Below are positions 5,172 through 41,339 of a DNA stretch of 56,595 bases, piece after piece. The notes under the pieces were generated by a model. The model was not told where the DNA came from. It saw only the letters and a list, made by a program, of their open reading frames with translations, and did not search any database. The first letter of the stretch is position 1. The number at the start of each line of letters is the position of its first letter. The translations under genes and the position numbers were made by a program. The DNA comes from Comamonadaceae bacterium (GTDB lineage: Bacteria > Pseudomonadota > Gammaproteobacteria > Burkholderiales > Burkholderiaceae_C), in contig JAIXRH010000065.1 in NCBI GenBank assembly GCA_027485285.1, forward strand, positions 1 through 56,595, written 5' to 3'.

Positions 5172-6188
5172 ATGTCATCCAGCGAACAGACAAACATCGA
5201 ATCCAAGCGCCGCAGTTATGACGCGTGTGACCCTGCCTACTTGCGCGAATTGCGCAACGCCGCAGGGATAGATGTGCACGTGTTGGCTCGCACGGCTTGT
5301 TTGTCGGTGGCTCAAGTGCGTGCGCTTGAGACAGACAACAGCGACCTCTTGTTTTATTCGGATGCCATCAAGCGTCAAGCCTACAAGCGTTTGCTGATGA
5401 TTTTGGGTGCAGATCCGCCCTCGGTGGAAGTGCCAGACGAATTGCGCGATGCAGGCAAAGTCGCAGAGGCCCATCTCAACACCCTAGATCAACTCGTGGC
5501 CATGAGCCATCAACCGGCCCTCAACCGTTCGACTTGGGGTTGGGTCCGCTCAGGGGTGACCAAGTTGAACAAGCACAAGCAATTCATGGGTGCTTTGTTG
5601 TTGCTGGTGGCGGCGGTGGGACTGTTTGTGATGCAAGGCCTTCAATCTGCTGGCGATTTGGTCGTGGTTGCACCTTCTGCTTCTGAAGCTGTTCAAACGC
5701 CACCTGAGTCTGCCCTTGTGGCTGCAGTCCCTTCTCCGGCTTCAAGCACGCCCCAAGCTGCTAAGCCTGCCGCCACCGCTGCCGCTTTGGTTGCTGCGTC
5801 TGCTGACACAGTTCTGACTGCGCCCGTCTCATCCGCCTCTGCACCGATCTCGGAACCTGCCACCCTCGCGGCCTCCAGCAAAGTGGTGGGCTGTGCGCAT
5901 GTCACCGACGCCATGCCCCAGTTGACACCCTTCATCGCGCAAAAAGAAGGACGCTATGTTTATGTGGTGAGCCTTGGCAATGCTGAAATTTGCTTGGTGG
6001 ATGGCAACAAGCAAGCCACTGTTTTGCAACTCAAGGCAGGCGAAAACCGCAGCGTGCAAGGCGTCGCCCCTTGGCAAGTGTCTAGCCCGCAATTGTCGAA
6101 GCTTCAAATCTTTTTCCAGGGTTGGCGCATTGCTATTCCTGAGGCGTCCACACGTGTGAGTTTGGTCGAAGTGCCTGTTTCGCGTTAA
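5172..6188 (+). CDS. RodZ-like single-pass membrane protein with N-terminal helix-turn-helix
   Basis: 338 residues from the ATG at 5172; an in-frame GTG at 5154 would add six, and neither start has a clear Shine-Dalgarno. Residues about 20-80 form an Xre/RodZ-type HTH (YLRELRNAAGI, TACLSVAQVRALE, FYSDAIKRQAY). A single membrane helix lies at about 139-156. An Ala/Pro/Ser-rich periplasmic linker follows, then a compact C-terminal region (about 235-338) with GENRSVQGVAPWQV, reminiscent of RodZ DUF4115. A bactofilin gene starts 6 bases downstream. A homologue without the C-terminal domain is at 40632-41339, also next to bactofilin genes. In RodZ this HTH contacts MreB; here a membrane adaptor for bactofilin is my inference. 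Confidence 0.8.
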   Translation: MSSSEQTNIESKRRSYDACDPAYLRELRNAAGIDVHVLARTACLSVAQVRALETDNSDLLFYSDAIKRQAYKRLLMILGADPPSVEVPDELRDAGKVAEAHLNTLDQLVAMSHQPALNRSTWGWVRSGVTKLNKHKQFMGALLLLVAAVGLFVMQGLQSAGDLVVVAPSASEAVQTPPESALVAAVPSPASSTPQAAKPAATAAALVAASADTVLTAPVSSASAPISEPATLAASSKVVGCAHVTDAMPQLTPFIAQKEGRYVYVVSLGNAEICLVDGNKQATVLQLKAGENRSVQGVAPWQVSSPQLSKLQIFFQGWRIAIPEASTRVSLVEVPVSR

Positions 6189-6194
6189 AGCCCG

Positions 6195-6578
6195 ATGTTC
6201 AAACACCTTAAATTTGGACAGTCCGATCAAGCTGTCCCCACTGAAAAAACCATCATCGGTCAATCCGCTGTGGTGGTGGGCAACATCGTGTCACAAGACA
6301 TGGTTCAGCTCAAAGGCCATGTGGTGGGCAACATCGATGTGAATGGCAGTCCCAACGCCCAACTGTCAGTGTTGTCGCAGGCGCAGGTGGAGGGTGATAT
6401 CAATGCCCAGCAAGCGGTGGTCAATGGAGTGGTCACTGGCAACATTGAATCGACGGGGCGTGTCGAGCTGCATGCGGGCGCTGATGTGAAAGGCAATATT
6501 TCATACGCGACCATGGCCATTGAGCACGGCGCCAAGCTGTACGGGATGATGAGCAGCAACGATGCCAAAACGGGCTGA
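6195..6578 (+). CDS. Bactofilin family polymer-forming protein
   Basis: 127 residues dominated by the DUF583 right-handed beta-helix, visible as regularly spaced short repeats with V/I and G (GNIVSQDMVQLKGHVVGNI, VNGVVTGNI, VKGNISYATM). Bactofilins self-assemble into nucleotide-independent filaments at the inner face of the membrane and position wall enzymes. The ATG is 6 bases after the stop of the RodZ-like HTH gene, so the two form an operon. It is one of three bactofilins in the window; the others are at 38699 and 40098. No metallopeptidase is adjacent here, unlike the second locus. Confidence 0.9.
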   Translation: MFKHLKFGQSDQAVPTEKTIIGQSAVVVGNIVSQDMVQLKGHVVGNIDVNGSPNAQLSVLSQAQVEGDINAQQAVVNGVVTGNIESTGRVELHAGADVKGNISYATMAIEHGAKLYGMMSSNDAKTG

Positions 6579-38698: not shown

Positions 38699-39070
38699 AT
38701 GTCTAATCAATCTGATTCGCTCGAAAGTGTTGTTATCGGTGACGGCGTTGTCGTCAAAGGTACGTTCACAGTTCCATCAAAAGCCATCATCAATGGTGTT
38801 ATTGAGGGTGATTTAACTGCTGAAGAGGTCTTAATCGGCCCAACAGGCAAGATCACCGGCAGAGTTTCTGCCAAGGTGATCGATGTGCGTGGACAGTTGC
38901 ACAACACCATCATTTCTGAGAAGAGCCTGATCGTTCGCTCAACCGGAAAAATTGCTGGCAAAGTTCAATACTCGGAGATCGAGATTGAAAAGGGCGGCGA
39001 GATCGAAGGTACCTTGAGCCAAGATGCCAACGGTCCTGTGATGCAAGTGGGCGGCCCTGCGGCCGTTTAA
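38699..39070 (+). CDS. Bactofilin family protein (second locus, first copy)
   Basis: 123 residues consisting almost entirely of the beta-helical DUF583 core, with repeats such as GVVVKGTFTVPSKAIINGVIEGDL, GKITGRVSAKVIDVRG and GKIAGKVQYSEIEIEKGGEIEGTL. It has a strong ribosome site (AAGGAG). It is likely the main scaffold of this operon because it is first and best translated. An M23 peptidase gene follows after 18 bases. Filament formation and membrane association are known for the family; its place in this cell is inferred. Confidence 0.92.
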   Translation: MSNQSDSLESVVIGDGVVVKGTFTVPSKAIINGVIEGDLTAEEVLIGPTGKITGRVSAKVIDVRGQLHNTIISEKSLIVRSTGKIAGKVQYSEIEIEKGGEIEGTLSQDANGPVMQVGGPAAV

Positions 39071-39088: not shown

Positions 39089-40129
39089 ATGATGTCTCGA
39101 ATTGTCACCGCTGCGCGATTGCTCCCCGGGTTTGTCGCTCGGGGATGGACTCGTCAGTACGAGGACGCGAGAATCATTCTTGAGCAAAACGGCGACCTTC
39201 ACTACCTGAACATCAGCGCGCACATGCAGCGCATTTTGGTGCGTGGCGGCATTTTGACCACGGGCGTCATGCTCGTTGCTATCTTTGTGCTGATGGTCAC
39301 CAGCGTGAATCTGATGATCAGTCGCGCCAAGTTGGAGCGATCGCATGAAGAGGTCTATCGCGCACTGCTCAGCAGCGCTTCTGACTCTGAAAACGGCGAT
39401 CAACTCACCATGAATGACGAGCAAATGGTTGCCTTGGCGCAAACCATTCGCGATCGCGACATGAGCATTCGCCGCTTTGTGGACACGTCCATGGTTGCGG
39501 TGTCGCAAGAAAACGTGACCATGAAGTCGCAACTTGAATCTTCGGGTTTGACTGAAAAGATCGTGAAGATCATTCAGCAAAACGCGGCCAATGGTGGCTT
39601 TAACCTAGAAGACGATGTCAAAAACAATCCTTTGCTGCGCGGCAAAGTGGCTGACGAGTTGTCAACCAACCGTGCTTTGCGTGAAGTTCTTTACGCATTG
39701 CCGAGCGTCATGCCTGTGCCCAATTACAGTGTGACATCCGATTTTGGTGTGCGTCGTCATCCTATTTCAGGACAAACACATTTCCACACCGGCCTGGATT
39801 TGTTAAGTCAAACAGGGGATGAAAAAGTCCATCCCGTCAAGCCAGGCGTGGTTGTTTTGGCGCAGTTTCATACGCAATATGGCAACACCGTTGTGGTCCG
39901 CCACACCAATGGTGTTGAATCCCTGTATGCGCACATGGCTAACATAGCGGTGAAGTTGGGTGACAAAGTCACCAATGAATCTGTGTTGGGTAATATCGGT
40001 AGCACAGGTTCTTCGTCAACTGGCAAGCATCTGCATTTGGAAATTTTGATTGGTGGTTATCCAGTCAACCCACAAAAAGTAATACGGACGGCACAATATG
40101 TTCAACAAATCCAAAACCAACAACGTTAA
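39089..40129 (+). CDS. Membrane-anchored M23 (LytM-type) endopeptidase
   Basis: 346 residues. A short cytoplasmic N-terminus precedes a membrane helix at about 53-72, a helical/coiled periplasmic stretch (about 78-200) and the peptidase domain (about 208-335). All zinc and catalytic motifs are intact: H233-xxx-D237 in HFHTGLDL and H314-x-H316 in HLHLEI. It should cut peptidoglycan cross-links. It is flanked by two bactofilin genes and overlaps the second by 32 bases. M23 peptidases next to bactofilins are known to act in cell shape (for example Csd1 with CcmA in Helicobacter). A second ATG at 39092 is equally possible. Confidence 0.94.
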   Translation: MMSRIVTAARLLPGFVARGWTRQYEDARIILEQNGDLHYLNISAHMQRILVRGGILTTGVMLVAIFVLMVTSVNLMISRAKLERSHEEVYRALLSSASDSENGDQLTMNDEQMVALAQTIRDRDMSIRRFVDTSMVAVSQENVTMKSQLESSGLTEKIVKIIQQNAANGGFNLEDDVKNNPLLRGKVADELSTNRALREVLYALPSVMPVPNYSVTSDFGVRRHPISGQTHFHTGLDLLSQTGDEKVHPVKPGVVVLAQFHTQYGNTVVVRHTNGVESLYAHMANIAVKLGDKVTNESVLGNIGSTGSSSTGKHLHLEILIGGYPVNPQKVIRTAQYVQQIQNQQR

Positions 40130-40598
40130 TCCAACTCAAGCAGGTGCAGCTGCGCCCGAAGCAGAGGAGCTGAGCAATGACGTTGAGAATGAAGACGAGT
40201 TGAACGAGGCTGTGACGCAGCCCGTAGTCAATCCCCCCCCTCAACCAACCCAGCGAAGCAGCATGATGGACATGATCACAACAACCGCGACAAAACCCTC
40301 AATTTTGAGCGAGGGCTTCTCCTTTCGAGGCGAGATCGCTGCCAAAGGCGCGATCCACGTTGAGGGTGCATTGAATGGTCAAATCCAAGTCGATGAACTC
40401 ACCATCGGTGCACGTGGTCAAGTGGAAGGTGTTGTGACTTGCACCAGCTTGCACATCAAAGGGAAATTCTCAGGCACTGCAACATGCAATGAACTCATCG
40501 TCACCTCTTCTGCTTCAGTGGACGGTCACGTGGTGTATCAAACCTTGTCTGTTCAAAAGGGTGCTTCGATCAAGGGCGAGCTCTTGCTGGTTAAGTAA
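40098..40598 (+). CDS. Bactofilin family protein with N-terminal extension (second locus, second copy)
   Basis: 166 residues. The first 65 are acidic and Pro/Gln-rich, probably disordered, ending in MMDMITTTATKPSILSEG. The beta-helical core then runs from about 70 to 163 (FSFRGEIAAKGAIHVEGALNGQI, GQVEGVVTCTSLHIKGKFSGTATC). Its ATG lies inside the M23 gene, 32 bases before that gene's stop, so translation is probably coupled. Two bactofilins of different length in one operon suggest a mixed polymer or separate positioning roles. Confidence 0.92.
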   Translation: MFNKSKTNNVNPTQAGAAAPEAEELSNDVENEDELNEAVTQPVVNPPPQPTQRSSMMDMITTTATKPSILSEGFSFRGEIAAKGAIHVEGALNGQIQVDELTIGARGQVEGVVTCTSLHIKGKFSGTATCNELIVTSSASVDGHVVYQTLSVQKGASIKGELLLVK

Positions 40599-40631: not shown

Positions 40632-41339
40632 ATGAGCCAAGAAGATATTTTCATCAACGGTGAATTGCTGCGCTTGCGTCGAGAGGCCAGTGCTTGGGCC
40701 ATCAATGACATGGCTGTACGTGCTTGTTTGTCTGTGAAACAAGTTCGCCAGCTTGAAGACGGTGGCATGAGCTCTTTTTACAGTCAGTCGGTGAAAGCCA
40801 CTGCCGCGAAAAAGGTGGGCGCAATCTTAGGCTTAACACCCGATCAGGTGTTCAACAAGTCGGTTGAGCCTGCGCCAAGTGCTGATGCGATTGAGCCACA
40901 ACTGGTTGAGAGTGCTCAAGATGCCTCACTTGAAACCAAGGCGGCCTTGGTGTCTGAGGCGCATTCAGAAGCGGTGGTCGTTCCTTTGGAGGCCCCTGTT
41001 CTTGTAGACCAGGTACCAGCACCTGCAGCCATCTCTGCACCAGCTTCAATCACTGAAGAGCCAAAATCTAAAACCTCGTTGTGGGTCATGGCTGGTTTAT
41101 TTGCCGCTGCTTTGGCGGTGGCCGCTTACATGCAGCCGCGCGAATTACCCGCCTCTGAGCCAGCGCCCCCGTTGCAAGTGCTTCCTTCTGAAGAGTCCGC
41201 CAGTGTTGCAAGCGCTGCCGATGTGCCTGCTTCTGAGCCAGTTGAAGTTGCGTCAGGGGCTGCCCTTGTTCAAAAGCCAGCCTCTGCCACAACAGCCACA
41301 GCTTCTGCGCCTGCCGCAGCTGCAAGCAAAGCACCTTGA
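40632..41339 (+). CDS. HTH single-pass membrane protein, paralogue of the 5172 protein
   Basis: 235 residues from the ATG at 40632; an in-frame TTG at 40626 would add two. The cytoplasmic HTH (about 10-70) shares the pattern CLSVxQVRxLE, FYSxxxK and ILG with the protein at 5172. The membrane helix is at about 150-167, and the tail is an Ala/Pro/Ser-rich stretch of about 65 residues without the C-terminal domain of its paralogue. It ends the bactofilin-M23-bactofilin-HTH operon, 33 bases after the last bactofilin. It resembles a minimal RodZ. DNA binding is unlikely given the membrane anchor and the RodZ precedent; a membrane-cytoskeleton link is my inference. Confidence 0.8.
   Translation: MSQEDIFINGELLRLRREASAWAINDMAVRACLSVKQVRQLEDGGMSSFYSQSVKATAAKKVGAILGLTPDQVFNKSVEPAPSADAIEPQLVESAQDASLETKAALVSEAHSEAVVVPLEAPVLVDQVPAPAAISAPASITEEPKSKTSLWVMAGLFAAALAVAAYMQPRELPASEPAPPLQVLPSEESASVASAADVPASEPVEVASGAALVQKPASATTATASAPAAAASKAP

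Follow-up and report, generated by a model that had tools for sequence, protein, structure and literature searches.

Two membrane proteins with a helix-turn-helix (HTH) domain, P1 and P2, are encoded beside bactofilin genes at separate loci of the stretch analyzed here (the window), a contig of 56,595 nucleotides from a Limnohabitans genome of the "LimA" type; among its named relatives in GTDB r220, Limnohabitans sp. Jir61 and B9-3 have contigs labelled LimA. We hold with moderate confidence that the two are membrane adaptors derived from RodZ and in part put to use in bactofilin shape modules, with a RodZ- or Csd5-like action. What the analysis shows directly is how the genes are ordered and how well that order is conserved, the domain architecture, the membrane topology as read from the sequences, and the separation from canonical RodZ.

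Organization of the two loci

P1 (338 aa; 5172..6188, + strand, ATG start) is composed of an HTH domain, a single transmembrane helix, a linker and a RodZ_C-like periplasmic domain. The HTH domain (aa 22-84; 5235..5423, +) matched Pfam HTH_31 at 3.4e-5 and HTH_25 at 1.2e-3, both under Pfam's cut-off, the transmembrane helix (from aa 139; 5586..5648, +; hydropathy 2.25) is preceded by a stretch containing Lys and Arg, and the RodZ_C-like domain (5886..6185, +) carries two conserved cysteines, C241 and C274. The adjacent bactofilin gene (6195..6578, +; PF04519, 7.4e-22), whose product starts with MFKHLKFGQ, follows P1 after 6 bp, and the ORF coordinates together with the PF04519 match bear out the spacing of six bases given in a preliminary description of this DNA. 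No response regulator gene lies next to this pair in the window.

About 32 kb beyond the pair, four genes form a quartet: bactofilin A (38699..39070, +; PF04519), an M23 peptidase (39089..40129, +; PF01551, 2e-26), bactofilin B (40098..40598, +; PF04519) and P2 (40632..41339, +). The peptidase gene, absent from the preliminary description, stands between the two bactofilin genes and overlaps that of bactofilin B by 32 bp; its product has by eye an LmdC-like layout (cytoplasmic N-terminus, transmembrane segment, M23 domain) and carries HFHTGLD and HLH, which we take to be the HxxxGxD-like and HxH metal motifs. The bactofilins of the window scored 77.9, 72.2 and 78.6 bits against PF04519 (cut-off 27.9). 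P2 consists of the HTH domain, a linker, one transmembrane helix (from aa 149; 41076..41138, +) and a short Pro/Ala-rich periplasmic tail; its ORF opens at TTG 40626, 27 bases from bactofilin B, and the alternative ATG at 40632, at a distance of 33 bases, is the more likely start. P1 and P2 share 44% identity across 62 aa of the HTH (E 2e-9) and the order of a cytoplasmic part with the HTH followed by one transmembrane helix, which confirms the earlier claim that a paralogue of P1 is linked to two other bactofilins. Their C-termini differ, a periplasmic domain being present in P1 only, and Pfam found no RodZ_C in P2.

The source genome contains seven bactofilin matches on five contigs, and a canonical RodZ is encoded elsewhere in it (contig C99; HTH_25, 57.4 bits) with rlmN upstream. 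Neither P1, which adjoins thyA, nor P2, which adjoins hemH, lies in the rlmN/ispG neighborhood (rlmN, thyA and hemH were named by eye). Because this separate canonical rodZ exists, P1 is not the ordinary rodZ of the genome, and the idea of a bactofilin partner survived the check on whether P1 is a genuine rodZ. Two full-length MreB genes are present as well, but in the window mreB adjoins neither P1 nor P2; the second one (G000:C44:15956-16945; L213) is located away from the mreCD-like cluster, and further loci with such a second MreB are L214:3957-5786 and L215:3948-5389. In the genus genome G015, a response regulator gene is divergent from a run of soluble HTH, bactofilin, MreB paralogue and sensor kinase-like genes (kinase by eye), and G022 has the same arrangement minus the bactofilin. 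A further member of the P1/P2 family, an HTH-transmembrane protein of 145-147 aa, is encoded directly after fliN in the source genome (L106:1990-2430, G000:C12; fli names by eye), and in G120 and G224 (L107:2952-3386, L108:3746-4180) a bactofilin and another gene lie on the opposite strand between fliN and the HTH gene. The source genome also has another M23-bactofilin pair (G000:C42:9962-10258; L004), with no HTH-transmembrane gene within the fetched stretch.

Linkage to bactofilins within the genus

Across 25 genomes of the same genus, with 119 bactofilin matches, every one of the 21 P2-type genes had a bactofilin match no more than 64 bp away (expected counts 0.09 for 500 bp and 0.18 for 1.5 kb), and P1-type genes were found within 500 bp in six of 20 cases and within 1.5 kb in eight (0.22 expected, P 2e-11), expectations and P values that ignore shared descent. 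The 20 do not include P2-type genes that P1 matched weakly, and a match split within a single ORF was counted once. None of the eight canonical rodZ genes detected in these genomes, i.e., HTH_25 matches with a RodZ-sized frame of 213-258 aa, lay within 1.5 kb of a bactofilin match. Since 21 of 21 P2-type and 8 of 20 P1-type genes stand against 0.18 and 0.22 expected, chance is excluded; the enrichment of bactofilin neighbors, whose absence the preliminary description had named as a refutation, is strong, and the linkage recurs in a second family. P2 is absent from four genus genomes: G002 (57% complete, two bactofilins), G005 (87%, one), G017 (99%, none) and G023 (97%, none).

A scan of GTDB r220 species gave at least 55 P2-type loci, which overlap with the 21 same-genus genomes and are not a sample independent of them. 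Among the matches listed, the P2-type gene started 3-53 nt past the last sense codon of a bactofilin at 54 of 55 loci, the full order bactofilin-M23-bactofilin-HTH was visible at 50, the other four of the 54 beginning at a contig edge, and a second HTH-M23-bactofilin unit lay just upstream at seven of the 55. The single exception (L169), labelled Burkholderiaceae, groups with proteins of a second genus, g172, in the HTH tree, and its genome is therefore probably not of the LimA type. The LimA gene cluster also occurs in a metagenome bin labelled Bordetella parapertussis (L143), probably a mislabel.

P1-type genes have several surroundings. At the thyA locus, the order is HTH-bactofilin-response regulator in G003, G009 and G224 and HTH-regulator, with no bactofilin, in G011 (gene names by eye); an HTH-bactofilin pair with a divergent response regulator occurs in G002, G004 and G012 (contig C106), and in G018 and G021 the min genes are divergent from an HTH-M23-bactofilin unit that is followed by the P2 quartet. 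Twelve of the 20 genes have no bactofilin match within 1.5 kb, including those at a locus common to six genomes (with an alpha/beta-hydrolase gene in five, by eye), at a deacetylase/TPR locus in two (by eye) and at a min/RNA-methyltransferase locus in two, where the nearest bactofilin is 6.0 and 6.3 kb away, and that of G020, on a 5-kb contig whose far side is unseen. The proposal of a dedicated bactofilin partner thus agrees with P2, which follows a bactofilin at 54 of the 55 loci among the matches listed, and less well with the P1 subfamily.

Canonical rodZ was detected by HTH_25 in eight of the 25 genomes (G000, G003, G004, G009, G010, G011, G017 and G023) and in none of the other 17, some of them nearly complete and G018 among them, where the gene is either too diverged or replaced. 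Eleven of the 12 unlinked P1-type genes belong to genomes with no detected canonical rodZ (e.g., G006, G015, G016, G019 and G024, 94-99% complete), and may therefore have replaced RodZ there; the same is true of the genomes of four of the eight bactofilin-linked genes as far as detection is concerned.

Linkage beyond the genus

In genus g172 of family f32 (genomes of 1.7-2.1 Mb), which we take to be Polynucleobacter, the glnK/ilvD locus of all six genomes found encodes an HTH protein related to P1 and P2; a response regulator adjoins the HTH gene there in five, and G254 has two HTH genes in tandem. G558 and G583, with six and seven bactofilins, have an extra HTH-transmembrane copy with a two-cysteine C-terminal domain, 35 bases before a bactofilin, and the four other genomes, with 0, 0, 1 and 0 bactofilins, have HTH copies at the glnK locus only. 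On the opposite strand in G558 and G583 lie a second bactofilin gene and a gene for a 122-aa protein (L210:4263-4628 (-), L211:4581-4946 (-)), which matches the M23 profile at positions 46-163 of 366 only, i.e., its N-terminal/transmembrane part, and in which no peptidase domain was found. We regard the bactofilin linkage in g172 as the best independent support for the association.

Strong profile matches were restricted to the genus itself and g172 in the samples searched. In the family sample, 86 of 200 genomes matched at E<=1e-3, and below 5e-6 only three same-genus genomes and G229 did so, the match of the latter being a 74-aa HTH with a TGA inside it. This HTH of G229 (L111:3061-3908, another genus) has no transmembrane segment; its neighbor is a response regulator (by eye), and the genome has no bactofilin match. 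Of the 399 genomes in the order sample, 25 reached E<=1e-7: the source genome, the g172 set of six (E 5e-23 to 6e-20) and a further 18 (E 1e-14 to 4e-8). Loci were inspected for four of these 18 (L178-L180 and L192), L192 being a canonical RodZ, and a bactofilin search in six of them found one with no bactofilin and five with bactofilins not near the HTH gene. Five of 398 genomes of the phylum sample matched at E<=1e-10; in large genomes 13 or 26 candidates were scored, so that misses are possible. In the five bactofilin-bearing genomes just mentioned, which belong to other families and have weaker HTH matches (G317, G376, G441, G535 and G604), the HTH and bactofilin genes lie far apart or on different contigs, a result that speaks against the adaptor reading.

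Relationship to RodZ

The likeness to RodZ that had been proposed for the HTH protein holds for the architecture of the P1 type. The HTH_25 scores of P1 and P2, 19.0 and 17.5 bits, are under the cut-off of 24.6, and the g172 relative L173 reached 27.5, exceeding the Pfam cut-offs for both HTH_25 and RodZ_C. The C-terminal domain of P1-type proteins aligned with that of 13 canonical RodZ proteins, including E. coli RodZ (hhalign 95%, E 4e-8), while PF13464 (RodZ_C) was matched at E<=10 by six of 19 single P1-type proteins, at best 6.9e-4, P1 itself not among them. Because of this alignment and the Pfam matches of L173, P1-type proteins can be classed from their sequences as RodZ-type by architecture. 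A hydropathy segment above 1.6 after aa 80 was present in 57 of 58 P2-type and eight of nine bactofilin-adjacent P1-type proteins. Two cysteines, an aspartate and a QG motif are invariant in the C-terminal domains of 23 P1-type proteins, g172 included, and further aligned P1-type rows also retain both cysteines.

P1-type proteins thus share with RodZ the domain order, the one transmembrane helix and a RodZ_C-like periplasmic domain, but differ from it in their two conserved periplasmic cysteines and in lying beside bactofilins instead of at the rlmN locus; the HTH_25 match is weak, and FYS..(I/V)K stands where RodZ has LPG..F.RG. In a tree of the HTH, 19 canonical RodZ rows (and one duplicate, since row L192 was in twice) split from the 81 others with an SH-aLRT support of 97%, although the columns are few and the branches long. 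This tree was built on 93 columns from one P2 row in three and without the weak hits, and it is poorly resolved, 49 of its 98 inner branches being open. The genus' own canonical RodZ proteins showed no RodZ_C and HTH_25 only in the two that were scanned with Pfam (L001, frame 1450-2106, and L200), and by eye L195, L198, L199 and L203 also end shortly past the transmembrane helix.

Alternative explanations

It is unlikely that P1 and P2 are membrane-bound transcription regulators whose HTH binds DNA and which, together with neighboring response regulators, control bactofilin and wall genes when the C-terminal domain detects an envelope signal. The Pfam models nearest to the HTH are the general HTH_31, HTH_25 and HTH_3, and profile searches of the PDB gave only weak matches, mostly to XRE-type regulators, with RodZ 2wus at E 0.32 and no relative of the C-terminal domain. 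In two families, FixJ/LuxR-type regulators adjoin HTH genes of the P1 type, whether or not a bactofilin is present (L110:2716-3369, L114:4105-4716, L115:615-1250, L173-L177): they lie near six of the 20 P1-type genes of the genus, five of these six being bactofilin-linked, and at five of the six glnK loci of g172, and Pfam confirmed both response regulators that were scanned (L110 and L204). Around the P2 quartet, however, a response regulator was met at only three of 58 loci searched (L109, L117 and L120), weakly, and the layout of HTH and transmembrane helix with the RodZ_C-like domain is that of RodZ, whose HTH binds a filament protein.

We consider it quite improbable that these proteins, whether RodZ paralogues or substitutes for RodZ, have kept their binding to MreB, or bind the second MreB, with the bactofilin-adjacent ones linking MreB to a bactofilin module. 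The presence of two full-length MreB genes in the source genome, the consecutive soluble HTH, bactofilin and mreB paralogue genes of G015, and the scarcity of detected canonical rodZ in the genus, above all in genomes with unlinked P1-type genes, would suit such a role, but the source genome does have a canonical RodZ, and neither P1 nor P2 has an mreB neighbor in the window. The residues F60 and Y64 of E. coli RodZ are critical for MreB binding, according to the accessible part of one study (PMC4047632). In a gapless alignment, both positions were non-aromatic in all 52 bactofilin-linked rows (36/36 P2-type, 9/9 P1-type and 7/7 M23-linked), against F60 in 18 and an aromatic residue at 64 in at least 11 of the 19 canonical RodZ rows. 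hhalign gaps this region and pairs F60 with a Phe of the family, and position 64 is non-aromatic in both alignments. The change at F60 is thus seen with the gapless alignment only, and Y64 is the one residue whose loss is robust.

That bactofilin and HTH genes were duplicated together and are adjacent with no joint function is highly improbable: although the genus-mates are related, so that 21 of 21 does not amount to 21 independent events, and the tree needs just seven changes of the adjacency label, the gene orders vary (after bactofilin B, before the bactofilin at thyA, HTH-M23-bactofilin at min, and the response-regulator loci), a second family has the linkage, and the spacing stays short while the HTH diverges, as in L170, whose bactofilins are 81% and 89% identical to those of the window and whose HTH is 39% identical.

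A putative RodZ-like adaptor of bactofilin modules

The reading as RodZ-derived adaptors for bactofilins finds parallels in systems already described. In the accounts available in part to us, bactofilins meet bitopic partners through the cytoplasmic part of the partner: BacA binds the N-terminus of LmdC (PMC10945521), PbpC behaves similarly (PMC12448750), and in Helicobacter the bactofilin domain of CcmA binds the cytoplasmic part of Csd5, which CcmA needs to reach the envelope (PMC9507126). The Csd5 system of Helicobacter pylori resembles the present one in that a bitopic protein brings a bactofilin to the envelope of a curved cell through its cytoplasmic part, a contact proposed for P1 and P2, and in including an M23 peptidase, Csd1 (PMC9507126). 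Csd5, however, has a periplasmic SH3 domain and no SH3 family was among the Pfam hits of P1- and P2-type proteins, so that membership of P1 and P2 in the Csd5 family was rejected and the likeness drawn here is one of proposed function. The bactofilin-LmdC pairs of Hyphomonas and Rhodospirillum are likewise adjacent, overlapping genes for a bactofilin and a bitopic M23 protein in morphologically complex cells (PMC10945521, as far as its accessible text goes), but in the present case the M23 gene has a bactofilin on either side, and a gene for a RodZ-like HTH-transmembrane protein comes next. PadC of Myxococcus xanthus is a bactofilin-neighboring adaptor as well, shown to bind bactofilin, but the available part of its description presents it as having a ParB-like domain and a role in chromosome segregation, not as a RodZ-type membrane protein (PMC5703909). 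The earlier statement that no function was described for such a pair stands insofar as no publication on a RodZ-like HTH protein paired with a bactofilin was found in the open-access literature, and falls short insofar as Csd5-CcmA is a described functional analogue (PMC9507126, in its accessible part).

The N-terminus of bactofilin B, MFNKSKTNNVN, resembles the membrane-targeting peptide of BacA, MFSKQAKS (PMC12448750, partial text), as do many partner N-termini, e.g., MFNKSKTNN. Partner bactofilins start with MF and a polar residue in 50 of 58 cases for P2 and six of nine for P1, some of the others being cut by contig ends. An HTH anchor may therefore not be needed: a role of the HTH protein as sole membrane anchor of the bactofilin is doubtful, and that of a client or coupler, judged from these N-termini, appears more likely.

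In the mechanism that we propose, a RodZ-derived bitopic inner-membrane family would have been duplicated in the LimA lineage, and several of its branches would have become neighbors of bactofilins and, in many cases, of LmdC-type M23 endopeptidases too. The cytoplasmic HTH would bind the bactofilin polymer, as the HTH of RodZ binds MreB and the N-terminus of Csd5 binds CcmA, and the single transmembrane helix would fix the complex in the membrane. The RodZ_C-like domain of P1, probably disulfide-bonded, may read or recruit periplasmic wall enzymes, and at P2 the co-encoded M23 peptidase would supply the wall-cutting activity. Such a module would help give the cell its solenoid (curved) shape. 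A bolder version, which we offer tentatively as a possibility, is that, after duplication of RodZ, some copies switched from MreB to bactofilin, so that a second elongasome made up of a bactofilin polymer, a RodZ-like receptor and an M23 endopeptidase, joined in some genomes by an MreB paralogue and a two-component system, makes these freshwater cells solenoid, the canonical RodZ of the genus, where found, having lost the periplasmic domain that P1-type proteins kept.

As to cell shape, the LimA isolates KL6S and LF5-52 are listed as solenoid, and the LimE isolates B9-3 and B10-3v as ovoid and solenoid, respectively, in the part of the survey available (PMC3591437, Table 2). The ovoid strain B9-3 carries the quartet (L127), and the quartet alone therefore does not make a solenoid cell. 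Few partners are known that tie bactofilin filaments to wall enzymes (PbpC, LmdC and Csd5). If the adaptor reading is true, the RodZ plan would not be specific to MreB and could be redirected to a polymer of another kind, unrelated to MreB, and in Limnohabitans LimA there would be a testable case of the acquisition of curvature in planktonic cells.
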